A stretch of DNA of 64,000 nt from a virus. The notes beneath the pieces were generated by a model, which was not told the origin of the DNA, did no database searches, and worked only from the letters and a program-made list of their open reading frames with translations. Both the position numbers and the translations under genes were made by a program. The stretch lies in IMG/VR virus record IMGVR_UViG_3300044949_001956, positions 1 through 64,000 of that record. The stretch is one strand, 5' to 3'. Positions 1,111 through 55,535 of this stretch are shown here, one piece after another (within the stretch, counting starts at the first letter, position 1; each line of letters begins with the position of its first letter).

Positions 1111-1912
1111 TCCAGTCTAGAACATCAGTCCAGTCCATAGAGCAGACCTCATCCAACCGGGTGCGGTCTGCTTTAGTATAGCGCTGATACTGCGCCTTGA
1201 GTTCCTCGGGCATGTCTATCTCTGCTATCTTGGAGTTCTCCTTGATGGCGATAGTCACCGCAACCTGCAGGAAGCTCTTGGGTGATCCTGTACCCACATT
1301 CCATATGTCGGACTGATTTACATACAGAAGCCTGTCGTGAACTTGGCACACGTCGTCGACGTGAACAAAGTCGCGGAAGTACTTGTCTGAATCCTTAAAC
1401 ACCTTGATGGTGCCGGTCTCTCTGGCTTGCTTCCTGAACTTGGTCACAGGACTTGCTTGATCGCCCTTGTGGTCCTCGTGGTCTCCATACACGTTGAAGT
1501 ACCTGAACCCTTGAACCGGCACTCTCCAGTTGCCGGCTTTCACGTATTGGTCGAACGCATACTTCGACCACGCATATGGACTACGAGGTTGACCCGGCGC
1601 TGACTCGCTGAAGTCGGGTCCAGGTCCGTACACACTAGCGCTGCTGGCGTATTGGAACCTTACCCCCAGTTCGTTGCACATGGACAGCAGGTCGATGCTG
1701 AACAGCAGATTCTGCTCTAGTATCTTGTTGATGTCCTTCTCGGTCGTACTGGATATGGCGCCTAGATGGATGACAGCATCTAGTCCTGACACGCGAGGCA
1801 AGGTCTTGTCTGGGTCATACTCATAGCCCTCAACCTCGTGCCCACGGGCAGTCAAGTGCTTGACCATGTTCTGCCCGATGAAGCCCTGGTGACCGGTGAC
1901 TAGTACCTTCAT
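1097..1912 (-). CDS. hldD: ADP-L-glycero-D-manno-heptose 6-epimerase
   Basis: Extended short-chain dehydrogenase of 271 residues. It shows the N-terminal nucleotide-binding VTGHQGFIGQN, the catalytic YAWSK (YxxxK), and a GFRYFNVYGDHEDHKG segment typical of HldD/RfaD. In the known pathway it epimerises ADP-D-glycero-heptose to the L,D form used in LPS core. Its start overlaps the end of hldE by 4 nt (ATGA), so the two form an operon. It is shorter than the roughly 310 residues of E. coli HldD. Confidence 0.88.
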   Translation of the reverse strand: MKVLVTGHQGFIGQNMVKHLTARGHEVEGYEYDPDKTLPRVSGLDAVIHLGAISSTTEKDINKILEQNLLFSIDLLSMCNELGVRFQYASSASVYGPGPDFSESAPGQPRSPYAWSKYAFDQYVKAGNWRVPVQGFRYFNVYGDHEDHKGDQASPVTKFRKQARETGTIKVFKDSDKYFRDFVHVDDVCQVHDRLLYVNQSDIWNVGTGSPKSFLQVAVTIAIKENSKIAEIDMPEELKAQYQRYTKADRTRLDEVCSMDWTDVLDWIRDP

Positions 1913-3078
1913 CTTAACTTCTCTATGATGCTGGTGGTGGAGAGATTGCCCACAAGTGGGATGATGACCACCTCAGCCAAGTCGTTGCCCACCACAGTCT
2001 CGGTGGTGTAGTCACCACCCTTGGTGATCACGTCTGGTCGCAGGTTCTCTATGACTCTTCTGGGCGTGTCCGCGTCAAAGATCACCACCTCGTCAACCGA
2101 CTCTAGAGACTCAAGCAGAGCCTTTCGATCCTCCTGCTTGTTCACGGGTCTGTCGTTGCCCTTGAGTCTTCTGACTGACTCATCCGAGTTGAGACCCACA
2201 ACAAGTCTACCGCCGAGCTTCTTGGACTCTCTCAACAGCTCTATGTGACCTCGATGGAGGATGTCAAAGCATCCGTTTGTAAAGACGGTCTTGACTCTCC
2301 TGATGTCGTCTTGTGTCAGGACGTAGGTGCCGAACTTGGTCACGCTGAGTCCCGCCAGCTTGTTTGCTTTGGTGCACGCCATGACCAGATCGTCACCCAG
2401 TGACAAGTAGTAAGTCATGCTGGCAATGAACACGTCACCTGCGCCCGTGACGTCGCTGACCGAGTGCTCGTCGCCCTTTATGTGTGTTGTAGAGTCCTTG
2501 GTGTACACAGACACACCATCTCTACCTCGTGTGACAACCAGAGCTCCTATCTGATACTTGTAGAGCATTCTTGCAGGACTGTTTTGGTAGTCCTCCTTGT
2601 CCGTGTAGTCAACCAGTTCCTTCTGGTTGAGCTTGACGATGTCTGCGCCGATGTAGTTCTCGAGGCGCTTCTTGGGATCTACAATGACCTTACAGCCGAA
2701 GCTCTTGCACCGAGTGATGATCCTATGGGTGTAGTGCAGGTAACCCTTGTTGTAGTCGCTCAGTACGCAGTACTCGATTCCAGTCAGATCAAGGTAGTCT
2801 ACATCATTGTTTATGGTGTACTGCTCGTTGTCAGAGCGAAACACGAGGTGATTATCACACACGTACCTCTTCTTGATGGCGTGGTTCGTCACATCAAAGT
2901 AGTGATCCACTTCGGCTCCTAGGGCCTGCAAGTTTGCCACCACGTTGCCCGAGCCACCGTCACGGCACTCGTACGACACCTCCTTGAAGATGGGTATGGG
3001 CGACTCCGGCGAGATCCTCTCCACCTTGCCCGTGATGTACTCATCTAGAATGTAGTCACCTATGACTGCTATTGTCAT
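1909..3078 (-). CDS. hldE: Bifunctional heptose 7-phosphate kinase / heptose 1-phosphate adenylyltransferase
   Basis: 389-residue protein. The N-terminal PfkB-type kinase domain has DGGSGNVVANLQALG and the catalytic VTGAGDVF. The C-terminal nucleotidyltransferase domain has FTNGCFDILHRGH and KGGDYT. This is the HldE architecture, which makes ADP-D-glycero-beta-D-manno-heptose. It is somewhat shorter than bacterial HldE (about 475 residues), with the loss mainly in the kinase half. It is coupled to the nuclease gene upstream and to hldD downstream by 4-nt overlaps. Both active-site signatures are intact. Confidence 0.88.
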   Translation of the reverse strand: MTIAVIGDYILDEYITGKVERISPESPIPIFKEVSYECRDGGSGNVVANLQALGAEVDHYFDVTNHAIKKRYVCDNHLVFRSDNEQYTINNDVDYLDLTGIEYCVLSDYNKGYLHYTHRIITRCKSFGCKVIVDPKKRLENYIGADIVKLNQKELVDYTDKEDYQNSPARMLYKYQIGALVVTRGRDGVSVYTKDSTTHIKGDEHSVSDVTGAGDVFIASMTYYLSLGDDLVMACTKANKLAGLSVTKFGTYVLTQDDIRRVKTVFTNGCFDILHRGHIELLRESKKLGGRLVVGLNSDESVRRLKGNDRPVNKQEDRKALLESLESVDEVVIFDADTPRRVIENLRPDVITKGGDYTTETVVGNDLAEVVIIPLVGNLSTTSIIEKLR

Positions 3079-8738: not shown

Positions 8739-9709
8739 AGCTTGAATGCCTCACTTCCGATGTCTGTGAACGAGATGTGGAACTGCTTGTAGTGCTTCCG
8801 CATGTGGGTCTTGAAGCTGGCGTGGCGCTCGTGCGGGACGTAGAAGAGCATGTACCCACCGCCGCCTGCGCCCAATAGCTTGCCGCCGATGGCTCCCGCC
8901 TTCCTCCCCTCCTCGTACATCGCGTCAATATGAGGGTTAGAGATAGAGCTTGCCAGCTTCTTCTTTTGCTCCCAGGTCGTGTGCAGCAGGGCGCCGAAGT
9001 CATGAAGCTTTTCAGACTTCAGGAGCTTGAGACCTTCCTCTGCAATTTGGACCAGCTCCTTGGTGGCATCAACCGTCGACTTGGTCTGCAGGTTGGCGAC
9101 CTGCTCCCCGAGTATATCAGACGTCTTTCTATTCACGCCGGTTGAATAGCAGATGAGTCGCTCGTTGAGCACGCCAAGGATTGCGGAGCTCAGTGGTATT
9201 GGGGTCACCTCTACACCAGAGCTGTCGAACCGGATGCAGTTGAATCCACCGTAAGCTGCCGCATACTGGTCCTGCTTGCCGATGGGCTCTCCGCAGAAGT
9301 CGATCTCGATGTTGCTTGCAAGCTCTGCTAGGTCTCTCTTATTATACGGCAGGCACTTGAGCTTGTAAAGGGCATTCACCAGCGCTACGGTGAAAGTCGA
9401 CGACGAGCCGAGACCCGTGCCCTTGGTCGGAACGTCAGAGAAAGAGCAGATCTCTATCTTGCGCTGAGTCTCAAATATGCCAAGGGCATGCCTGATCCTG
9501 TCGTGCTTGAGTTCACTGGCGTCCTTGACCACTTCCATCTCTGAGTAGACTGCACGAACGTGGTCAGTCTCGCAGGGGTTTACGGCTATCTTGATGCGTC
9601 GGTCAATAGCCGTAGAGATCACCATCCCGGGTGAGTTCCTGTAGAACTGCGGGATGTCACTGCCCCCTCCGAAGAACGAGATCCGGAGGGGAGCCGAGGA
9701 GATGATCAT
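8735..9709 (-). CDS. hddA: GHMP-family heptose 7-phosphate 1-kinase-like protein
   Basis: 324 residues. It has SAPLRISFFGGGSD at the N-terminus, the ATP-binding GLGSSSTFTVALVNAL and the C-terminal GGKLLGAGGGGYMLF, the three GHMP kinase motifs. Its sequence pattern and pairing with gmhA point to D-glycero-alpha-D-manno-heptose 7-phosphate kinase (HddA), the kinase of the GDP-heptose route. The start was chosen at MIISSAPLR, whose ATG overlaps the upstream stop (ATGA). Another sugar kinase of the family is the alternative. Confidence 0.8.
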   Translation of the reverse strand: MIISSAPLRISFFGGGSDIPQFYRNSPGMVISTAIDRRIKIAVNPCETDHVRAVYSEMEVVKDASELKHDRIRHALGIFETQRKIEICSFSDVPTKGTGLGSSSTFTVALVNALYKLKCLPYNKRDLAELASNIEIDFCGEPIGKQDQYAAAYGGFNCIRFDSSGVEVTPIPLSSAILGVLNERLICYSTGVNRKTSDILGEQVANLQTKSTVDATKELVQIAEEGLKLLKSEKLHDFGALLHTTWEQKKKLASSISNPHIDAMYEEGRKAGAIGGKLLGAGGGGYMLFYVPHERHASFKTHMRKHYKQFHISFTDIGSEAFKL

Positions 9710-10707
9710 GCTGTCTTGTACGTGAACTTGGGCGTTGGAAATGCCCTGGACTCTACAGTTGGGTATTCGGCTCGAAGTGACCGAATGAGGTCTTCCCACT
9801 GACTGGCGATCTTTGTCGCGTTAAACCTGACATCTGCATACTGCTTGACAAAGCCCAGGTAGTTGATGGCATTATCCTGGTGCACCACCTGAATGGCATT
9901 CTCCAGTAGGTGATAGAACTTAGAGGCATGCTGATTGTGGTCGTCGATGAACTGGTACATGGATGTCAATCCACCAGACGTGTCAGCAAGACCAGCCAGA
10001 TTTGGATGCAGACACAGGCATCCAGCGCTCATGGCCTCAATCAGTGCTCGGGAGTTGCACTCCTGCCAGATTGAGGGGTAAGCAAAGATGTGAGCCTTCT
10101 GAAGGTGCTCTCGGACCACGTCGTTCGGCTGAGAGCCGTGGTACGTGATCTGCGGGTGGGACTTGCAGCGCTCGAAGAGCTCCTGGTATGGCTTGTCGGA
10201 CTCTTCCCACCCGTAGATGGAGAAGCTAGAGAACACGTCCAGGTGGATGTTCTTGTGCTTTTTCGCTAGTTCCTCAAAGACCGGGATCAGCAGGGCAAGG
10301 CCGCGCTGAGGTGTCGAGGTGTAGATGAGTCGGACTTCATCCTTGGACTTCTCTACCCACTGGATCGGTTCGATGGGTGTCTCGATGGTGACGCACTTGT
10401 CGTTCTGCGGTACACCCAGATATGTGACGTACTGGTTGTACTGCCAGTTGCCACAGAATACCAGCTTGTGGAACCTATCCCTACTGGACTGATCCTTGAG
10501 GTGGTTGGTCTCAGGGTCAAGTGGGAGGTCATGGAGCCAGTAGACTCGAATCTTGCTCTCGTCAAGGCCTCGAACACGACTGCAGATGACCTGCATGTTG
10601 TCCTGGGCTAGTAGGTCGGGTGATAGCTTTGCCGCCACCATCCTCTTGGTCTGCTCGGTTCCTCCGTTAGACTTTACGGAGATTTCGTTCTCTTCAAAGA
10701 TTGCCAT
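9706..10707 (-). CDS. GT-B glycosyltransferase (family 4-like)
   Basis: 333 residues. The C-terminal Rossmann half has RLIYTSTPQRGL, HIFAYPSIWQECNSRALIEAMSAG and a later GG motif, matching the donor-binding EX7E region of GT4/GT1 enzymes. The N-terminal half is short. The start (MAIFEENEISVKSNGGTEQ) retains the glycine-rich acceptor-side loop. Likely adds a sugar to LPS, capsule or modified DNA, and the surrounding heptose and GalE genes favour a surface glycan. It overlaps galE by 14 nt. Confidence 0.78.
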   Translation of the reverse strand: MAIFEENEISVKSNGGTEQTKRMVAAKLSPDLLAQDNMQVICSRVRGLDESKIRVYWLHDLPLDPETNHLKDQSSRDRFHKLVFCGNWQYNQYVTYLGVPQNDKCVTIETPIEPIQWVEKSKDEVRLIYTSTPQRGLALLIPVFEELAKKHKNIHLDVFSSFSIYGWEESDKPYQELFERCKSHPQITYHGSQPNDVVREHLQKAHIFAYPSIWQECNSRALIEAMSAGCLCLHPNLAGLADTSGGLTSMYQFIDDHNQHASKFYHLLENAIQVVHQDNAINYLGFVKQYADVRFNATKIASQWEDLIRSLRAEYPTVESRAFPTPKFTYKTA

Positions 10708-11671
10708 TGCGATACTCCCATGCAGACCGCATCATGAGATCAAGGTCATCAGCACCGTACTGGTACTTGAAGCCGGTCTGCTTTATGAACTTGTTTGGAT
10801 TTGCTACAAGGAAAGGCGGATCGCCTACTCGGCGTGGGCCTTCAACCACCTCAACTTCTGCACAGGCCTTGCTGAAGCAGTCAATCATCTGGCGGACAGA
10901 GTAGCCCATGTTTGTGCCGAGATTGAACTTGTGGTGGCAGGGATTTGAGCCCTCTAGGTATTTATCCGCGTGAATCAGAGCTCGGGCTACGTCGACCACG
11001 TGGAGGTAGTCGCGAATCGGTGTGCCGTCATGCGTATCGTAGTCGGTGCCGTTGATGATGAACGGCTCCTTCTTCATCGACCGGTCACATAGCTGGTTGA
11101 CGATGTGCGGTGTCTCAGGTAGCTGGCCGACATCCCCGTATGCGCCTACGACACAGAAGAAGCGGAACGACACCGCACGGATGTGACCCAACTTGTAGTA
11201 GGAGTCAAGCATCTGCTCGGTCCAGAGTTTGGACAAGCCGTAGTTGTTGGGAGGATCCAGACGACTAGTTTCCCTGAGCACTCGGTCAGAGATGCCGTAT
11301 GTCGCCGCCGTGCTGGCAAAGATAAACTTGTTTGAAGGGGTGAGCTCTCTGATCAAATTGAGAGTCTTGGCGGTGTTGTTCTTAAAGTAGAGTAGAGGCT
11401 CGATGGCACTTGGGCCAAGGAGACTGTTTGCGGCTAGGTGAAAGATGGTTGCATCCTTGTACTCGTGGTACACGTGCATCGCTTGCTCGGATACAAAGTC
11501 TGCTGCCAGGAAGTCGTCGCAGTACTTCACCCTGTTTGCGCCGTTGATCCAGTCAAGCTGACAGTTTGGGTCGTTGTCAATGCCGACGACGTAGTAGCCG
11601 TTCTCCTTGAGCAACTTGCACAGAACAGAGCCGATGTAGCCGTAGGCTCCGGTTACAATAGCTGTCTTCAT
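10694..11671 (-). CDS. galE: UDP-glucose 4-epimerase-like NAD-dependent epimerase
   Basis: 325-residue extended SDR. It has the NAD-binding VTGAYGYIGSVL, ASTAATYG, the catalytic YGLSK and the GalE-like GTPIRDYLHVVDVARA. GalE interconverts UDP-glucose and UDP-galactose (or the N-acetyl forms). It overlaps the glycosyltransferase and cytidylyltransferase genes, forming one surface-sugar operon. Confidence 0.85.
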   Translation of the reverse strand: MKTAIVTGAYGYIGSVLCKLLKENGYYVVGIDNDPNCQLDWINGANRVKYCDDFLAADFVSEQAMHVYHEYKDATIFHLAANSLLGPSAIEPLLYFKNNTAKTLNLIRELTPSNKFIFASTAATYGISDRVLRETSRLDPPNNYGLSKLWTEQMLDSYYKLGHIRAVSFRFFCVVGAYGDVGQLPETPHIVNQLCDRSMKKEPFIINGTDYDTHDGTPIRDYLHVVDVARALIHADKYLEGSNPCHHKFNLGTNMGYSVRQMIDCFSKACAEVEVVEGPRRVGDPPFLVANPNKFIKQTGFKYQYGADDLDLMMRSAWEYRNGNL

Positions 11672-19227: not shown

Positions 19228-19247
19228 GCTGAAAAGTGGAGGACACC

Positions 19248-19535
19248 ATGGACGTAAACTCTTGGTTCAAGTTGGTAGCCGATTTAGGCTTTCCGATAGC
19301 CTCGGCTCTTGCGGGAGGCTACTTCGTGTTTCTGACCATGAAGTTCATCCTGTCAGGAGTCTTAAGTTCGGTGAAGAGCCTCAGCGGCATCATTACGGCT
19401 CTCGACAACAGAGTCAAGACAATGAACCACGACGTCATCCGAATTGATACCCTTGTCAGTAACGCGATGGGCGTCAAGCCTGACGTCGAGCGAATTGCAA
19501 GGGCAGACGGAAAGAACGACGCCCGTAGAGATTGA
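19248..19535 (+). CDS. Small membrane protein with one N-terminal TM segment (95 aa)
   Basis: Starts MDVNSWFKLVADLGFPIASA at an ATG with GGAGG 5 nt upstream. One hydrophobic segment at roughly residues 13-40 is followed by a coiled-coil-like amphipathic region. It resembles the next protein (19592-19921) in layout: a GFPI motif, a Gly-rich TM segment, then a helical tail. The pair may be holin-like or accessory envelope proteins expressed late. No family assigned. Confidence 0.65.
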   Translation: MDVNSWFKLVADLGFPIASALAGGYFVFLTMKFILSGVLSSVKSLSGIITALDNRVKTMNHDVIRIDTLVSNAMGVKPDVERIARADGKNDARRD

Positions 19536-19591: not shown

Positions 19592-19921
19592 ATGGGCGGT
19601 GTAGTAGAACTCATAAGCAAGTATGGGTTTCCGATCGTGGCGGCCGGCGGGCTTGGCTACTTTGTCTACTACGTTTGGATCTGGGCCACCAAGGAAATCA
19701 AGCCCGTCCTCTCAGACGCAAGCAGTGTACTTATAGCGCTCATAGACCGAATCCGAATGCTTGACAACGACTTGATCAGGCTCAACCAGAAGGTCAACGT
19801 AGTCCTCATGCTGCGAGAGATGGAGCATGAGGAACTGGTCAAGAAGGCGGCTGAGTTCCGTCAAGCGGATCGGGAGACCAAGAAGGAAGCGCCTCCCGAA
19901 AAGCCGCCTACTTCGAAGTAG
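19592..19921 (+). CDS. Small membrane protein with one N-terminal TM segment (109 aa)
   Basis: Starts MGGVVELISKYGFPIVAAGG. One TM segment (about residues 13-35) is followed by an amphipathic helix (ALIDRIRMLDNDLIRLNQKV) and a Lys/Pro-rich tail. It shares the GFPI-TM-helix layout with the protein at 19248-19535, suggesting tandem duplication and divergence. It converges on the cyclase gene, overlapping it by 14 nt. Confidence 0.65.
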   Translation: MGGVVELISKYGFPIVAAGGLGYFVYYVWIWATKEIKPVLSDASSVLIALIDRIRMLDNDLIRLNQKVNVVLMLREMEHEELVKKAAEFRQADRETKKEAPPEKPPTSK

Positions 19922-21932
19922 CCCTGTACACGCCGTCAAAGCCCTTCGGCGGAGAGTAACTTTCCATTCTCTCCGCCATCATCTTGTAGTAGTCAACCAG
20001 CTCGCCGTCAAACAGCGGCTTGAGGTTGGGCAGCATTGACCTGGCAATGTCCCACCTGCCCTTGCGATACGCGGTCAGGAACTCCTGATGCAGGTTCATC
20101 GCCAGTATGTCTCTGTTCTTGACTACGGTATAGATCGACACGGGCTCGGTCTTGCCCTTGACCGCTAGTAGGTCAAGCTCGACCACGTTGAACTCTCCCA
20201 TGACTTGCTCTGCGGTCTTTGGACCAAGGACCAACTTCACGCCGTATGGCTTTGACTGTCCCTCAAGCCTTGCCGCTAGGTTCACGCTGTCGCCCAAGCA
20301 CGTGTAGTCAAACCTCTGGTCACTGCCCATGTTGCCGACCACGACTGAACCCGTATTGATGCCCAGGCCCATGCCGAACGCAGGCACTCCCTCCTTGGCG
20401 ATCTCGTCGTTGAACCTCTTTAGGTCGTCAAGCATAGCAAGTGCCGTGCGGACTGCATCGACTGCGTGCTTTTCGTTGTCAAGCGGAGCATTCCAGAATG
20501 CCATCTGGGCATCGCCGATGTACTTATCAAGAGTGCCGTTGTTCTCTAAGATCTTTGCTGTCATGGCAGTCATGTAGCGATTCATGATCTGAGTCAGGCC
20601 CTGGACGTTGTCGCCGTAGTGCTCAGAGATGGTGGTGAATCCTCGAACGTCGGTGAACATGATCGACAGCTCTCTGGTCTCACCGCCGAGCTTCAAGAGC
20701 TCTGGATTCTTCTGCAGCTTCTCCACCATGTCGGGAGACAGGTACGTGCCGAACTGCTTCTTGATCTGCTGCTTGAGTCTGAACTCCTCCATGGCTCTAG
20801 AGAATGCGGCAGCGGAGAACACAAGTATTGCTGCGGTGATAGGGAACACGGCGTCAAATAGGACCATGTACTCGGCTCTGGCAAACAGCGAGGCGTAGGC
20901 GACCCACCCGATTACAAACACCACGACTGGTCCGCCGACTATCAGTCTCGTCCGTAGGGCCATCAGTATTACCAGTAGACCGACAAGGAGCGATACAGCT
21001 AGCTCGTACGTGTCTGCCTCTGCCTGTCTGGTCACAAACAGTCGATTTATGACAGATGACAGCTCAGTCGCTATGACCTTTGCCGGCAGCATCTCGCCGT
21101 GACTTGTGGCGACCGGGTTGCTGAATCCCTCGGCGGTCAGTGACAGGATGACTATCGTTCCGTCCAGATCATCCGGGAGGTCCAGCACTGAGTATGATTC
21201 GTACCTGAACGAGCGAACGGGCCAAAGTCGACTGTTGGGGTCTGTGTATAGCAGAGGTTGCCCGGGTATCCTCAGCACCTCTACACCCAGATCGTTTGAT
21301 CTGATCTGAAAGCTGACCTCGTCGGACAGCACTCGAAGAGTCTCTAGAATCAGTGATGGATAGACCTTGTCGCCCACCGACACAAGCATCGGACTGCGAC
21401 GAACTACGCCGTCGGGCTCTGGCATGGTGGCTATCATGCCCACGCCAGATGCCGCTTCAGCAAACTGAGGCAGCGGCGGTATGGCGCCGGGCCATGAGGG
21501 CAGGACGTCGTTGATAGGAGGACCGATCAGGGCATAGCCTCTGTCCCTGGCAAACGGCTCTCTTGCCTGTGTTGTCGGCGCCTGAGCCAGGATGACCGTG
21601 TGCTCTCTCAGGGCATTCTCTAGGTCTGAGTCCTTGCCTGACCTATCAGTCTCCGAGAACAGTATGGGCACCACTATAGCCGCGGCGCCTCTGTCCATGA
21701 TGTCGTTGATGTATCGGGCGACAACATCTCTGGGCCATGGCCATTGACCGTTCTGCTGTAGAGCCGCCTCGTCTATGTTGACTAGCACTATCCCCGGATC
21801 GTTGATGACGGCCTGCTGGCGCTCGAGGAAGTCAAAGTACTTCATCCTTGCAACCTCAACGGGCCATGGATCAAAAGCTCTGATCGCCAGTAAGGCGACT
21901 AGGATCAATGCGGAGAGGATGTATTTCTTCAT
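19908..21932 (-). CDS. CHASE2-domain class III adenylate/guanylate cyclase
   Basis: 674 residues. N-terminal TM segment, an extracytoplasmic CHASE2 domain (about 30-320, with INDPGIVLVNIDEAALQQ and WPWPRDVVARYINDI), three TM segments near 330-400, then a class III catalytic domain. The catalytic motifs look intact: ELSIMFTDVRGFTTISE (metal-binding Asp), DKYIGDAQMAFW and GINTGSVVVGNMGS with LGDSVNLAARLEG. The start at MKKYILSAL overlaps the upstream stop by 1 nt (TAATG), making it the last gene of the curli-like operon. It would make cAMP or cGMP at the inner membrane in response to a periplasmic signal. Very unusual cargo for a phage. Confidence 0.9.
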   Translation of the reverse strand: MKKYILSALILVALLAIRAFDPWPVEVARMKYFDFLERQQAVINDPGIVLVNIDEAALQQNGQWPWPRDVVARYINDIMDRGAAAIVVPILFSETDRSGKDSDLENALREHTVILAQAPTTQAREPFARDRGYALIGPPINDVLPSWPGAIPPLPQFAEAASGVGMIATMPEPDGVVRRSPMLVSVGDKVYPSLILETLRVLSDEVSFQIRSNDLGVEVLRIPGQPLLYTDPNSRLWPVRSFRYESYSVLDLPDDLDGTIVILSLTAEGFSNPVATSHGEMLPAKVIATELSSVINRLFVTRQAEADTYELAVSLLVGLLVILMALRTRLIVGGPVVVFVIGWVAYASLFARAEYMVLFDAVFPITAAILVFSAAAFSRAMEEFRLKQQIKKQFGTYLSPDMVEKLQKNPELLKLGGETRELSIMFTDVRGFTTISEHYGDNVQGLTQIMNRYMTAMTAKILENNGTLDKYIGDAQMAFWNAPLDNEKHAVDAVRTALAMLDDLKRFNDEIAKEGVPAFGMGLGINTGSVVVGNMGSDQRFDYTCLGDSVNLAARLEGQSKPYGVKLVLGPKTAEQVMGEFNVVELDLLAVKGKTEPVSIYTVVKNRDILAMNLHQEFLTAYRKGRWDIARSMLPNLKPLFDGELVDYYKMMAERMESYSPPKGFDGVYRATSK

Positions 21933-23326
21933 TATTGCCCCTGTATCACCGTTATGGCTGCACAACTAGCGGTAGCGCAGTTGTGAGTGATTGAGTAGTG
22001 CTGTTGGGTGCTGCCCGTCTGTGTAGTCGTGATGGAAGTTGAACCGCCGCTTAACTCGATCCTCGCCATGTGGTTGCCAGAACCAGACTGATTCACGTTT
22101 ACGGTCTTGTTGCCGCCCAATAGGTTGATCTCAGCATAGTGTGACCCTGCGTTCTGTTGCTGCACCGTTATGGAGTTCACGTTGTTGCCTACAGTAGCAA
22201 GAACTCCTCTGGAACCACCGGTGCCTGATTGATTTATGGTTGTAGAGTTATTGCTTCCTTGGATGGTGGTCTCTATGTAGTTTGTGCTGTTATTGGAGTT
22301 CTGTGTGATGTTGGCGATGTTATTGGATCCATTGACTGTGTACTGCGTAAAGTTCCTTGTGCCCAGCTGAGTGACATTGGCTGTATTGGAGTTGCCGACC
22401 TGCTCGATGATCACTCTGCTGTCACCAGTTGCAGTAAACGTCTGCACACGTCCTGTAAATGCGGCATTGGAGTTGAATGGCGTGGCACTACCGCCGCAGC
22501 AAAGAGAGGGTGCGGCCGCGGGCGGGGGCGGGGCGGATGAGCCAGCATTTGGCTGGACGGGAGCAAACGTCTGCCCGTTCAGTGTGGTCGTGCCCTGAAT
22601 CTCATCAACTAGTAGGATCGGACTCAAAGCTGTATCACCAAGGTTAAAGCTAGCAAACCCCAGTGTGTATGTTCCTGTTTCCGGAACCGTAAATGTTGCC
22701 ACCTGCCATCCAGTTGAGCCGTAGCTGCCGGTAGAGTAGTTGCCCGTGCCGGGATTAGTAAACCCAAGCAGTCCGTATCTGCGCTGTAGGTTGTTCAGCG
22801 TTGGAATCTTGCTTGCATCCGTAGAGTGGACCAACGTGATCAGAGAGCCGTCATTGAACGGCGTGTAGTCAGAGGAGATGTACTGCCACGCTATGCTGTA
22901 GGTTACCCCGACTTGTAGTGCAACTGATCGCCTCAACCAGACTCCGTTTGTTGGGGTAGGATTACCACCACCGGTTTGAGCTTGCTGCTGCAGCATAGTT
23001 CTTATGGCTGTATTGTCTGCCTGCAGCAATCCAAGGCTAGACACTATGGAATCAAATCCAGGAGCTCCGGAGCCAGCTTGTAGTGAGGCCATGTGTGTTC
23101 CATGCGGCGTGACATTCCATGTCTTACCGCCACCTGGCGCAAAGTTAGTTACTCCTGTGACAACAGCCACGCCCACACCATTGGCGCCCCAACCTGTAGG
23201 ACCACGGGTTGCATTGTTGCTTGCGGTCCATCCAGTTAGGTTGCCAAGCTCAAATCCATAGTTGTCCTGAGCCGTTGCTGTGGTAGCAAACAGCAGTACA
23301 AACAATGCGGCAAGTAATCTGATCAT
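21932..23326 (-). CDS. Exported adhesin-like protein with C-terminal curlin-type repeats
   Basis: 464 residues. Signal peptide ends at TATAQ. The N-terminal about 240 residues look like a beta-sandwich module (NYGFELGNLTGWTAS, then VPETGTYTLGFASFNLGD), typical of exported surface proteins. A Pro/Ala linker follows (about 265-285). The C-terminal about 170 residues carry curlin-like repeats with the N-x-A/T-x-x-x-Q-x-G spacing (NSNTANVTQLG, NNIANITQ, NNSTTINQSG). A likely curli-associated fibre subunit or tip adhesin. It overlaps the FecR gene by 4 nt. Confidence 0.75.
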   Translation of the reverse strand: MIRLLAALFVLLFATTATAQDNYGFELGNLTGWTASNNATRGPTGWGANGVGVAVVTGVTNFAPGGGKTWNVTPHGTHMASLQAGSGAPGFDSIVSSLGLLQADNTAIRTMLQQQAQTGGGNPTPTNGVWLRRSVALQVGVTYSIAWQYISSDYTPFNDGSLITLVHSTDASKIPTLNNLQRRYGLLGFTNPGTGNYSTGSYGSTGWQVATFTVPETGTYTLGFASFNLGDTALSPILLVDEIQGTTTLNGQTFAPVQPNAGSSAPPPPAAAPSLCCGGSATPFNSNAAFTGRVQTFTATGDSRVIIEQVGNSNTANVTQLGTRNFTQYTVNGSNNIANITQNSNNSTNYIETTIQGSNNSTTINQSGTGGSRGVLATVGNNVNSITVQQQNAGSHYAEINLLGGNKTVNVNQSGSGNHMARIELSGGSTSITTTQTGSTQQHYSITHNCATASCAAITVIQGQ

Positions 23327-24408
23327 CTGTTCCAGATCCTTACTGTTACTCTGCTTCCACCGTCACCGCTGACCCTAGACTGAGTGTCGACCTCATTGAT
23401 AGAGATGCTGTATGTCGTGTTGTCGGTGCGCTCGCCGGTGTAGATTCTGATCACGTTGTTGCGCTGCTCGTCCTCTCTGTGATACCAGTTTCTACCCCTC
23501 TCGTTCCCACAAGCGTTGAATGGCCAACACGGGTTCGTGGGGGACACGTCGCCTTGCATCTCCGCTGTGGATGACACAAGCAATCTAGTCGATGAAGATG
23601 ACTCTGATTGTTGGTGATTGGATTCAGCGCTACTGGAGGAAGTCGCTCTCTGCTCCTCGCTCGACACAGCACTGCGGTTGCGGTCCCTTTCTCTAGCCTC
23701 ATTGCGCTGCTGCTCTGCAGCCAATATGCCCTCGGGCTTGCGCAGGGCTAGATCATTGCTGATGGTGGCTATGTTTGCTTCTATTCGGACTGGGGGCAGG
23801 GGTTGCTGATTAGCGTCTGTAACGTACGTGGCTGTAAATGGCTGAGTCAGGGTAACAGACCCCGCTGCCGTTATGACGTCGATTATGCCCACTGTGCAGT
23901 TGCCAGAGATCTCAAAGCGATTGATTTCTCTGGGGTCATTGCACGAGGGAAGCAGCACCACAAAGCTACGCCCCGCTTCATCCACCGACATCGCCATGTC
24001 AGTTCCCCTTACAGCAACTGTGGCTGTAGGAGTTGAGATGTTTAGGTTCTGTCGATTGGATCTAGCTATCTGACCAGACGTGTACTGAACTGTGCCCAGA
24101 GTGACTCTCATCGCCATCCTGCCAGCATCGGATCGGTTGGGATCGAACACGAAGCTGTCGATGACTAGTCTGGAGTTCTCTTTGATCTTGACTCTGGTGT
24201 TGTCCTGGAACGTGATGTTGGTCTCCGCTCTGGAGCCAACAAGCACGGTGTCCATGCTCTCTATGCTTGTGTTCTGTTGACCCGGTATAGAGTTTGAACC
24301 TCGTCTGATTTCAACGGTTGTCCCCGTCTGCTCAGAGACTCTGCCGACGGCAGCGTGAGCCACCGTCGGCATTAGGCATAACAATAATCCCACCAGTAGC
24401 TTTTTCAT
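23323..24408 (-). CDS. Exported FecR-domain protein
   Basis: 361 residues. Signal peptide (MKKLLVGLLLCLMPTVAHA) and then a FecR-type beta domain (about 40-150) with VLVGSRAETNITFQDNTRVKIK and LNISTPTATVAVRGTDM. There is no anti-sigma TM arrangement; it is a secreted FecR-domain protein. The second half is Ser/Gln/Arg-rich and low-complexity, then ends in a beta-like region. FecR-domain proteins occur in some bacterial surface and biofilm loci. It sits between the two curlin-repeat genes, so a role in the fibre or its assembly is likely. Confidence 0.78.
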   Translation of the reverse strand: MKKLLVGLLLCLMPTVAHAAVGRVSEQTGTTVEIRRGSNSIPGQQNTSIESMDTVLVGSRAETNITFQDNTRVKIKENSRLVIDSFVFDPNRSDAGRMAMRVTLGTVQYTSGQIARSNRQNLNISTPTATVAVRGTDMAMSVDEAGRSFVVLLPSCNDPREINRFEISGNCTVGIIDVITAAGSVTLTQPFTATYVTDANQQPLPPVRIEANIATISNDLALRKPEGILAAEQQRNEARERDRNRSAVSSEEQRATSSSSAESNHQQSESSSSTRLLVSSTAEMQGDVSPTNPCWPFNACGNERGRNWYHREDEQRNNVIRIYTGERTDNTTYSISINEVDTQSRVSGDGGSRVTVRIWNR

Positions 24409-24412
24409 GCTA

Positions 24413-25081
24413 CTATCTGCCGGTGGAGATCGTTACTGCGTTTGAGTTACCGGTTGTAGTTAGATTAACAGTCGTGTCTGCGGTGCCATGCTGAGTGATA
24501 GAGTGCGTGTTGCTTGTGCCGGTGATTGCGGCGACAAGTACGTGACCTGCACCAGCGCTTGCCCCAGTCATTGAGCTTGTAAGTGTGTTAGAGTCACCGA
24601 GGATCGTGATAGAGCTTGAGCTGCTGTTTGTGGTGATGGTCTGTGTCACAGCATTTGAGTTGCCTGTGATGTCAAGTGTGTTGGTGATGTTGCTGCCTCT
24701 GATAGTTGAGGTAACGGTGTTGAGATCACCAGCGATCGTCATTGTGCTAGTTACGGCCGTGCATGCAGTCGTGTTGTTGCCGCAGTTGAACGTGATCTGG
24801 TTTGTGTCGCCAGTCACGGTCTTTGTGATGGTGTTGTTGTCACCGATCACCTCATAGTCAATGATGTTGGCGTCACCTGTCTGAGTTGTCGATAGTGTGT
24901 TGTTGCTACCAGTGATGCTAGATGGGGACTGTGCAGTTCCTACGCGGTTGGTGTTTCCCATCTGTGTGATGTTAACTGTATTGGTGCTACCGACCTGCTC
25001 GATGTGAACTAGGTTCTGAGCAAGCAGAGGTGAAGCTGTTAGTAGAAAAAGACCTACTGCAGCTACTATTTTTCTGAGCAT
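24413..25081 (-). CDS. Curlin-repeat amyloid subunit-like protein (CsgA/CsgB type)
   Basis: 222 residues from MLRKIVAAVGLFLL (start chosen for GGACGG upstream). A signal peptide is followed by an almost purely repetitive Asn/Thr/Gly/Gln sequence with N-T-V-x-x-x-Q-x-G type units (HIEQVGSTNTVNITQMGNTN, NNTLSTTQTGDAN, NSNAVTQTITTN, SNTHSITQHG). This repeat pattern is diagnostic of curlin subunits that form amyloid. It follows csgG by 16 nt and precedes the FecR gene by 4 nt. Confidence 0.82.
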   Translation of the reverse strand: MLRKIVAAVGLFLLTASPLLAQNLVHIEQVGSTNTVNITQMGNTNRVGTAQSPSSITGSNNTLSTTQTGDANIIDYEVIGDNNTITKTVTGDTNQITFNCGNNTTACTAVTSTMTIAGDLNTVTSTIRGSNITNTLDITGNSNAVTQTITTNSSSSSITILGDSNTLTSSMTGASAGAGHVLVAAITGTSNTHSITQHGTADTTVNLTTTGNSNAVTISTGR

Positions 25082-25097
25082 TTTCCGTCCTATTTGA

Positions 25098-25907
25098 TTA
25101 TGGTGAAGTGGGTGCAAATTGCCAGACGCCTCTTCGTTCACCATCAAATATTATTTCAGTTACAGCGCCCAAAATAGCCAATTGTACTGCATAGTTCATG
25201 CTTTCATTAGAAGCAGCACCGGTCTCCATCTCCAATGACCGTGTGCCGAGTTCATTGAACCTGAGCACACTTACCTTGTCTTGCCAGCTGACAACAGTCT
25301 TGCTGACAGTTACCGACGAAAGAACTTCGCCCGTGGCTACGCTTACAGCACGAAGGTTGACCACTACTTCATCTTGCCTGTACTCGGTTAGACCGCCGAT
25401 GCCCAGGACCCTGGCGCCAAGACCGCCACTCATTAGATTTGAGTCGTAGCCTATGATGCCGCCTTCAAAGATCATGCCGGCAAACACGAGCGGTGGGAGT
25501 GGTCTTGCGTTTGGACCCTCATACAGCTCGCGCATCTGACGAATCAGCTGGCGCTCCTTGATCAGGTTGTCCAATCCGCCTCGCTCGACTACTCGGAACC
25601 AACGGCCGTTGCCAACCGTCTGCAGCGTACGAACTAGATACGCGTCAGCACCCTGAGTCACTGCGGAGCTCAAGGTGGCTATGTTTTGACTTGCTCTTCT
25701 CTGACCTGTTAGGTCTCTGAACTGATACACGGCAACCGTGACTGCACCTGTGGCAGGCGCCGGTATCTCTCTGGGAGTTTCTAGTGCTGGATTGACAAGC
25801 TCCGGGTCTCTTGTTCCGAGCCCGACTTGCTCTCGTAGGTCTCTACCGAGCTGACCGCAGCCAGACAGTAGCAGACCCGCTAAGATGATGATGGGGATGT
25901 TCTTCAT
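25098..25907 (-). CDS. csgG: Curli secretion channel lipoprotein CsgG
   Basis: 269 residues. Lipoprotein signal with lipobox LLLSGC. The CsgG core is visible as VAVYQFRDLTGQR, GRWFRVVERGGLDNLIKERQLIR, FAGMIFEGGIIGYDSN, EYRQDEVVVNLRAVSVATGEVL and the C-terminal NYAVQLAILGAV. Length matches E. coli CsgG (277). It forms the outer-membrane pore for curli subunits. The ATG overlaps the csgF stop by 4 nt (ATGA). Confidence 0.92.
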   Translation of the reverse strand: MKNIPIIILAGLLLSGCGQLGRDLREQVGLGTRDPELVNPALETPREIPAPATGAVTVAVYQFRDLTGQRRASQNIATLSSAVTQGADAYLVRTLQTVGNGRWFRVVERGGLDNLIKERQLIRQMRELYEGPNARPLPPLVFAGMIFEGGIIGYDSNLMSGGLGARVLGIGGLTEYRQDEVVVNLRAVSVATGEVLSSVTVSKTVVSWQDKVSVLRFNELGTRSLEMETGAASNESMNYAVQLAILGAVTEIIFDGERRGVWQFAPTSP

Positions 25908-26356
25908 GGCGCCATCCACCCAAAGTCCCCGATGGGCACATTCATGGTGGTGACTGAACCGGCAGAGTCCCTGATGGTCACTGCTATCAGATTACCGGTC
26001 TTTGAGTACGATATAGTACCGCCATTGAAGGCAAAGGTACCCGAGGCTTGAGCACCAGTGCCTTCAAATAGCTTTTCGGTAATCTGTCTGGCTAGTTCGT
26101 TGTAGACTCTACTCTCTAGGTTTGTGATGAACCTAGCCATAGTGGTGTTCTGAGCTGTCTGCTCGGCTCTGAGCTGCGCTGCCTTTCTTTCGGCTTCGAC
26201 AGCTATCCTTCTTGACAGCTCCATGTTGTAGACAGTAAGCACATGACTGCTGTAGCCAACACCCGAGAAGGCAGGCGAGTTGAATTGGAAGAGTATTTCA
26301 CTTGATTTCGCGGGATTAATGATGAAGACCATAACGATGAGAAGCAGTGCTCTCAT
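25904..26356 (-). CDS. csgF: Curli assembly component CsgF
   Basis: 150 residues with a signal peptide (MRALLLIVMVFIINPAKS) followed by ILFQFNSPAFSGVG, the conserved mature N-terminus of CsgF that plugs the CsgG pore. The rest is helical and then a beta-rich tail. First gene of the operon csgF-csgG-curlin-fecR-adhesin-cyclase. The ribosome binding site GGAGAC is paired with GTCTCC just downstream of a late-promoter box, suggesting late-specific translation. Confidence 0.88.
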   Translation of the reverse strand: MRALLLIVMVFIINPAKSSEILFQFNSPAFSGVGYSSHVLTVYNMELSRRIAVEAERKAAQLRAEQTAQNTTMARFITNLESRVYNELARQITEKLFEGTGAQASGTFAFNGGTISYSKTGNLIAVTIRDSAGSVTTMNVPIGDFGWMAP

Positions 26357-26361
26357 TCGAT

Positions 26362-26394
26362 GTCTCCTGGACCACTATTGGTCCTTGCGGAGAC
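26362..26394 (-). promoter_or_regulatory. Hairpin over the csgF ribosome binding site
   Basis: Nested stems on the minus strand: outer GTCTCC (26394-26389) with GGAGAC (26367-26362) and inner GGACC/GGTCC. The outer stem covers the csgF Shine-Dalgarno. A transcript starting from the adjacent late promoter would begin within the 5' arm and could not form the full outer stem. Confidence 0.55.
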
Positions 26395-26402
26395 TATTTA
26401 TG
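26395..26402 (-). promoter_or_regulatory. T4-type late promoter (CATAAATA) for the curli operon
   Basis: Minus-strand CATAAATAG, one mismatch from TATAAATA, about 40 nt before the csgF ATG and directly next to the 5' arm of the hairpin over its ribosome binding site. Confidence 0.6.
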
Positions 26403-54890: not shown

Positions 54891-54919
54891 GTAGTTTCTC
54901 CATATCGAGTTGTGAGGTC

Positions 54920-55203
54920 GGTTGATTCTGTTTCTAGGCTCAACCGTAAGCCCAAGAGATTACGCCGCTAAGCGAGTCTCAACAAAGCCGTTATCGTTGG
55001 CGTTTGTGTTGGTTTGTTGCGTTGGGTAGCTTCCGCACCATTGCCTACTTCGACCCTTACTGTCATCAGTCGATCCTGTTTCCGCCCCAAAGGAAAACTG
55101 TGACGTATCATCACTGACAGAGGTCACAGCCGTGTTATTGGTGGAGCGGCGGAGTGCTGCCCTCCGGTCCTGTCTGACCTATTTGGTCGCTATCATCAGC
55201 AAC
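54920..55203 (-). ncRNA. ssrA: Two-piece (circularly permuted) tmRNA
   Basis: Read on the minus strand. The acceptor piece comes first and ends CCGCTCC-A-CCA (55148-55139), with a T-arm CGGAG/CTCCG just before. After an about 50-nt spacer (itself with a CTGTGAC/GTCACAG hairpin) the coding piece begins GGGGCGG (55088-55082), pairing with CCGCTCC to rebuild the 7-bp acceptor stem. The tag frame reads ANDNGFVETRLAA followed by TAA (stop at 54960-54962), matching proteobacterial tags (AND...LAA). Permuted tmRNA is the alphaproteobacterial form. Outer ends are approximate. The promoter lies directly upstream. Confidence 0.88.
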
Positions 55204-55207
55204 AAGG

Positions 55208-55215
55208 TATTTATA
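55208..55215 (-). promoter_or_regulatory. T4-type late promoter TATAAATA overlapping the tmRNA -10 box
   Basis: A perfect late consensus that shares bases with the sigma70-type -10 of the tmRNA promoter, so the same site could be used early and late. Confidence 0.55.
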
Positions 55216-55237
55216 CACCAGTCCTAGTCGAAGTCAA
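55210..55237 (-). promoter_or_regulatory. Early sigma70-type promoter for tmRNA
   Basis: Minus-strand TTGACT, 16-bp spacer, TATAAA. The predicted +1 (about 55203) is just before the acceptor piece; it overlaps the 3' end of the 103-aa gene. Confidence 0.75.
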
Positions 55238-55535
55238 CCTTTTCCGACACAAGAGTTCGAGTCTCAGTGACCTTAGTGACTTGAATCGTCTCGAGCTTTG
55301 GAGAGTAATAGCTGGGCCCGACCTTTGATCTTGCTACGCTTATAGCCTTCTCTTTGGTGTCGAACTTGTATGCCAGCGTCTCGTTGGTGATCCACTGAAA
55401 GATGTTGTACTGGTAGTCGATGGAGACCCAAGCTGGTACATTCTCCTCCATCATCACGTACCCGGCTGAGTTCTCAGACTGATTCATCCGGACCGATACC
55501 GTGTAGTACTCTGTCTTGATCTCGTTAACTGTCAT
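55224..55535 (-). CDS. Hypothetical protein (103 aa)
   Basis: Starts MTVNEIKTEYYTVSVRMNQS. Beta-rich with repeated Thr/Val, ending TETRTLVSEKVDFD. No family. Overlaps the 61-aa membrane protein gene by 4 nt. Confidence 0.6.
   Translation of the reverse strand: MTVNEIKTEYYTVSVRMNQSENSAGYVMMEENVPAWVSIDYQYNIFQWITNETLAYKFDTKEKAISVARSKVGPSYYSPKLETIQVTKVTETRTLVSEKVDFD

Follow-up and report, generated by a model that had tools for sequence, protein, structure and literature searches.

A probable curli-type secretion operon with FecR and CHASE2 cyclase genes on a phage contig carrying T4-like replication genes

A six-gene operon on a viral contig

We analyzed a 64,000-nt stretch (the window) of the viral record IMGVR_UViG_3300044949_001956, which at 107,845 bp is itself a fragment, and focused on a minus-strand operon for curli-type secretion. 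Six open reading frames, all of them open throughout, run right to left from 26356 to 19908 in the order csgF, csgG, a first curlin-repeat gene (curlin 1), fecR, a second curlin-repeat gene (curlin 2) and a CHASE2 nucleotide cyclase gene (Table 1). They touch or nearly touch: csgF overlaps csgG by 4 nt, fecR overlaps curlin 2 by 4 nt and curlin 2 overlaps the cyclase gene by 1 nt, with gaps of 16 nt between csgG and curlin 1 and 4 nt between curlin 1 and fecR. Five of the six products carry N-terminal export signals (that of CsgG with a lipobox). The cyclase instead has one N-terminal membrane segment, which lies with a further cluster, at about residues 300–380, around the CHASE2 domain.

CsgF, CsgG, FecR, CHASE2 and the class-III cyclase domain all scored well above the Pfam cut-offs, and CsgG also matched Escherichia coli CsgG structures (about 1e-62). 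A strict count of the CsgF plug motif gave 22 of 67. The two curlin proteins are recognized by single stretches, which exceeded the curated Pfam cut-off when the record of the phage itself was searched; their whole-protein scores (4.9e-4 and 2.8e-3) fall just under it. The G/N spacing in both has an 11- and 22-residue period, as in curlin. The head of curlin 2 was modelled as a jelly roll with moderate confidence (mean predicted local distance difference test score about 75). Its best fold matches were the gingipain K3 adhesin (3m1h) and TmCBM61 (2xom), with a best E value of about 6e-4.

The gene thyX directly precedes csgF, and a T4-late-type promoter core lies in the gap between them. ATAAATA-type boxes occur 10 times in the window against 1.4 expected, a number reached in none of 100 shuffles, and 17 of 72 distinct related loci have such a box ahead of csgF, where 2–5 would be expected. 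A scan for sigma-70 promoters and terminators gave nothing above chance. Judging from these boxes, the operon is probably transcribed late from a T4-type promoter. Convergent with its far end, and accompanied by a late box, are the genes of two small paralogous proteins that each begin with a hydrophobic stretch.

Table 1. Features of the window; positions count from its first nucleotide.
Feature	Position	Strand	Description
T4-late-type promoter core ATAAATA	26395..26401	-	CATAAATA in context; between thyX and csgF, 38 nt ahead of the ATG of csgF
csgF	25904..26356	-	150 aa; signal peptide; curli pore-associated; N-terminal FQFNSPAFSG motif; Pfam CsgF 1.9e-17
csgG	25098..25907	-	269 aa; lipoprotein with LLSGC lipobox; curli secretion pore of the outer membrane; Pfam CsgG 1.3e-47
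curlin-repeat protein 1	24413..25081	-	222 aa; signal peptide; repeats of 11/22 residues; likely subunit of the fibre
FecR-domain exported protein	23323..24408	-	361 aa; signal peptide; no DUF4880; C-terminal beta strands; Pfam FecR 2.6e-10
curlin-repeat protein 2	21932..23326	-	464 aa; signal peptide; jelly-roll head (carbohydrate-binding/adhesin-like) at the N terminus, then a proline linker and, at the C terminus, curlin repeats
CHASE2 class-III nucleotide cyclase	19908..21932	-	674 aa; periplasmic CHASE2, transmembrane cluster, catalytic domain; Pfam CHASE2 1.2e-34, Guanylate_cyc 1.9e-19
paralogous small proteins	19236..19535 and 19592..19921	+	phrog_18771 (unknown function)
late box of the small-protein pair	19221		
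HldE-like PfkB + cytidylyltransferase	1912..3078	-	surface-sugar set
glycosyltransferase	9709..10707	-	surface-sugar set
epimerase	10697..11671	-	surface-sugar set
two-piece (permuted) transfer-messenger RNA gene	54916..55256	-	alphaproteobacterial type

The window also encodes a T4-like gp43 DNA polymerase, nearest to those of cyanomyophages at about 49% identity, along with gp41 helicase, primase, UvsX and NrdA/B. The type of its transfer-messenger RNA suggests an alphaproteobacterial host. The guanine-plus-cytosine (GC) content is 53% here versus 37% and 34% at the loci of two cultured phages, Methylophilales phage Melnitz and Pelagibacter phage HTVC008M. An earlier interpretation made from the nucleotide letters (the sequence-only reading) had placed these six genes in one orientation on phage DNA, with overlaps or gaps of at most 16 nt, a late-promoter-like box ahead of them and neither CsgE nor CsgC in sight. 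That observation is confirmed, with the genes running right to left.

Conservation of the module and its parts

A CsgG profile scan returned 486 viral relatives, of which the best 80 were read. Curlin 1 and FecR were counted at loci with more than 3 kb downstream of csgG, and the cyclase and second curlin at loci with more than 8 kb. Of 66 viral loci, 65 have a curlin gene after csgG, and FecR likewise follows in 65 of the 66. Of 51 loci, 50 have a cyclase in the vicinity (in line in 46) and 31 a second curlin gene. Because the curlin genes are conserved in this way, fibre-type genes, and not the pore alone, belong to the module. That dozens of viral contigs keep all of these genes together speaks for their working as a single unit. 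No DNA-level relatives of the operon were found in named phages. The FecR protein of an uncultured phage is 94% identical to that of the window, which indicates that close kin had been sequenced earlier.

After removal of phage-like contigs, about 72 of the 80 bacterial csg loci from a genome scan remained, and FecR and the cyclase occur at only one of them, in Hyphomonas sp. TMED17 (L088; our locus numbers carry the prefix L). This locus, on a 705-kb contig of a metagenome-assembled genome, has csgF, csgG, curlin, FecR and the CHASE2 cyclase in phage order between bacterial flanks, and we therefore dropped the idea that the coupling of FecR and cyclase to curli is exclusive to viruses. Among the other loci from metagenome-assembled genomes, L084, L086, L135 and the partial L092 resemble phage contigs and L101 clearly is one. 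In a cyclase tree, a branch with full support separates all phage-type sequences and the Hyphomonas one from those of 39 other alphaproteobacterial CHASE2 cyclases. No further close relative of the cyclase turned up in 105 genomes of the Hyphomonas family. The L088 operon could be related to the source from which phages took the module.

FecR and CHASE2 also meet outside curli loci. CHASE2-type cyclases occur in 178 of 385 alphaproteobacterial genomes. Forty such cyclases without curli were read with their flanks. In 15 cases a gene for a FecR-domain protein lies no more than about 5 kb away, in the same or the opposite orientation, and in four of these it is directly adjacent and in line, compared with the single case in 72 bacterial csg loci (p = 3e-7). 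The two genes are neighbours in Campylobacterota (PMC9239204) and in Sinorhizobium meliloti, where plasmid CyaD1 without CHASE2 makes cyclic AMP (cAMP) constitutively (PMC5498481). In a Burkholderia biofilm operon (BiofilmReg), FecR stands beside a CHASE2 kinase (PMC5192318).

The window's protein has an N-terminal signal and then the FecR domain, without the cytoplasmic DUF4880 anti-sigma part and transmembrane segment that precede this domain in anti-sigma regulators. None of the 34 relatives scanned shows DUF4880 either, and on that ground we rejected the reading as an iron-citrate anti-sigma factor. The best folds in the PDB for the FecR model were the PupR signalling domain (6ovk) and the anti-sigma protein 4m0n. 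Because FecR and CHASE2 pair recurrently without curli, the anti-sigma part is missing and the fold resembles a FecR signalling domain, we read this protein as the likely periplasmic partner of the CHASE2 cyclase. By motif counts, a curlin-like strand ends 28 of 37 phage FecR proteins versus 1 of 15 bacterial ones.

The cyclase in the window has a full adenylate-type catalytic set (D428, K470, D474, T544, N551 and R555, comprising the two metal Asp, the purine Lys plus Thr/Asp, and the transition-state Asn and Arg), and its closest solved structures are adenylate cyclases. The catalytic D, K, D and R are present in 59 of 59 phage-type cyclases. These residues suggest that the enzyme makes cAMP. 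No cyclic nucleotide-binding protein was found in the record, so any effect of cAMP would have to go through the host. As a separate observation, a stand-alone protein of about 100–125 aa resembling the C-terminal tail of phage cyclases is encoded just upstream of csgF at L012 (2713-3012), L014 (8188-8487), L042 (8026-8400), L049, L051, L069 and L072.

Relatives of curlin 2 keep the repeat tail and have exchangeable heads, with F5/8C in 10 of 34 and PA14 in 4 of 34. This pattern, along with the modelled jelly roll, suits a lectin-headed adhesive fibre component.

Proposed function and its alternatives

On balance, we lean slightly towards reading the operon as a phage type VIII (curli) secretion module that is joined to a FecR–CHASE2 cAMP sensor and expressed late from a T4-type promoter, which would put adhesive amyloid on the infected cell and send a cAMP signal that the host reads. 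By homology, CsgG with CsgF would form a nonameric outer-membrane pore. The small curlin-repeat protein would be secreted and form amyloid on the infected cell. The repeats of curlin 2 would join the fibre while its lectin-like head, to judge from the domain architecture, binds cell glycans and makes the fibres adhesive. The exported FecR protein would sit in the periplasm as the partner of CHASE2 and, as the recurrent pairing suggests, report on the state of the envelope or the fibre. The cyclase would then make cAMP for host cAMP receptors. The weakest step is the benefit: a changed surface or stickiness of the infected cell may hold siblings or debris near, block competing phages, or both.

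Several observations weigh against this reading. The curlin repeats are divergent and stand at the edge of the Pfam cut-off, and the exact late box is found in only 17 of the 72 relatives. CsgE is the secretion gate of curli and CsgC an inhibitor, and neither has a match in the whole 107.8-kb record, which is possibly incomplete; the E. coli control was positive. In 23 of the 59 phage-type cyclases, which form one supported clade (Melnitz, L001, L015-L022, L026, L028, L030 and others), residue T/S544 has become D and, coupled to this, N551 has become S. This change may leave cAMP output weak, altered or lost in those phages, with the gene kept. The S. meliloti FecR protein beside CyaD1 is dispensable for signal perception (PMC5498481), and Melnitz showed no clumping in cytograms or transmission electron microscopy (PMC9004378).

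A further proposal, which we regard as doubtful, is that the phage FecR protein uses its curlin-like C-terminal strand to sample or nucleate the secreted amyloid and relays fibre status to the CHASE2 cyclase, so that the phage would read its own amyloid as a cAMP signal. The tail of the window's FecR, VTVRIWNR, is a variant outside the strict Q-strand class. Because hhalign found no homology between FecR and curlin profiles, the similarity of the tails is one of motif counts.

The operon might instead serve superinfection exclusion only, with curlin and the adhesin coating the cell and masking receptors and no adhesion to other cells. The window's surface-sugar genes (HldE-like, epimerase and glycosyltransferase) are typical of receptor change and would fit such a role. 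However, late-type expression comes late for exclusion and the swapped glycan-binding heads suggest an outside binding target, and we consider this explanation unlikely.

In 2022, the authors who described Melnitz proposed a role in lysis timing. In this view CsgG, alone or together with CsgF, would be a gated pore or an analogue of a pinholin that helps to set off or time release, and the fibre-like genes would be passengers. They modelled a narrowed CsgG barrel, noted thyX synteny and saw no clumping (PMC9004378). In the window, too, csgF comes directly after thyX, and two small membrane proteins with a late box of their own converge on the operon. We nevertheless find this role quite improbable. 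The same paper says that csgA and csgB are lacking, yet the Melnitz record annotates two curlin-repeat proteins, and a curlin gene follows csgG in all but one of the 66 viral loci. CsgG is an outer-membrane lipoprotein whereas a pinholin acts in the inner membrane, which makes it a poor place for such an analogue. A passenger role also leaves the retained lectin-like heads and the FecR–cyclase pair unexplained.

Least probable of all is an uptake or envelope-stress module in which an ungated pore admits nutrients or siderophores, FecR, CHASE2 and cAMP retune host metabolism and amyloid is secondary: the window's cyclase is intact and there is no CsgE gate, as was also noted where cofactor or siderophore uptake was proposed (PMC9599517), but a FecR without an anti-sigma domain and an operon without a TonB receptor or sigma-factor partner make an iron-citrate reading weak, and the conserved curlin genes and adhesin heads go unexplained.

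If the reading as a secretion module with a cAMP sensor is true, many aquatic phages drive their hosts to assemble adhesive amyloid, along with a second-messenger sensor that may be missing from the host itself. Phages could in this way manipulate aggregation and cell fate, and we found no bench test of such a route. The published label of FecR as an iron regulator would become a testable sensor-partner hypothesis, and the second curlin gene could be given a definite function, that of a lectin-headed component of the fibre.

Relation to known systems

The genes csgF and csgG and their neighbours were reported in 2020, with "sibling capture" proposed as their function (PMC7029224). A 2022 paper covered the entire module in pelagiphage Myoviridae and Podoviridae, with FecR and adenylate cyclase among its genes, gave it an alphaproteobacterial origin and found genes of this type VIII secretion system (T8SS) in ocean metatranscriptomes (PMC9599517). 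The six-gene set, published between 2020 and 2022, is not new, and this phage is a further member. The sequence-only reading was therefore mistaken in taking the full set as unreported, and a marine origin is not established for this contig. Its phage operon, CsgG/CsgF pore, curlin-type secreted proteins and cyclase stand, and the link it drew between fibres and second-messenger signalling has a firmer basis than it had stated, given the FecR–CHASE2 pairs of bacteria without curli. What is new here is what we infer about FecR, the second curlin and the cyclase.

The operon resembles E. coli csgBAC/csgDEFG in its CsgG pore, CsgF and curlin repeats. Unlike that system, it is a single phage operon with FecR and a cyclase, and CsgE and CsgC were not found and CsgD was not seen in it. 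It shares with the bacterial FecR–CHASE2 clusters (PMC9239204, PMC5498481, PMC5192318) an exported FecR protein beside a CHASE2 cyclase or kinase; curli genes are not described in those clusters. The Hyphomonas locus has five of the genes in the same order but differs in having no second curlin between FecR and the cyclase and a FecR without the curlin-like tail, and it is the sole such locus found.

Melnitz and HTVC008M have the same six genes in identical order and strand. Identity to the window is 46% and 43%, respectively, for CsgG and 40% and 39% for the cyclase. Melnitz has a curlin 2 that lacks a head domain and a cyclase with Ser in place of the catalytic Asn; in HTVC008M, the cyclase is without the C-terminal tail and the curlin-2 head is unlike that of the window. 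Neither annotation has a histidine kinase before csgF, and the myophage version does not require one.

The closest description is that of the pelagiphage T8SS (PMC9599517), with the order CsgF-CsgG-CsgA/B-FecR-(CsgA/B)-adenylate cyclase and CsgE, CsgC and CsgD lacking. In the window, csgF, csgG and curlin are likewise adjacent and followed by FecR, and a second curlin and a cyclase come after FecR, as is frequent in Myoviridae. Unlike the pelagiphages, the window phage has a GC content that is not SAR11-like, and upstream of csgF it has thyX and not the histidine kinase of the podophage version. That paper takes FecR to be an iron regulator and the second curlin to be an ordinary fibre gene, whereas here they are read as a likely CHASE2 partner and a putative lectin-headed protein.

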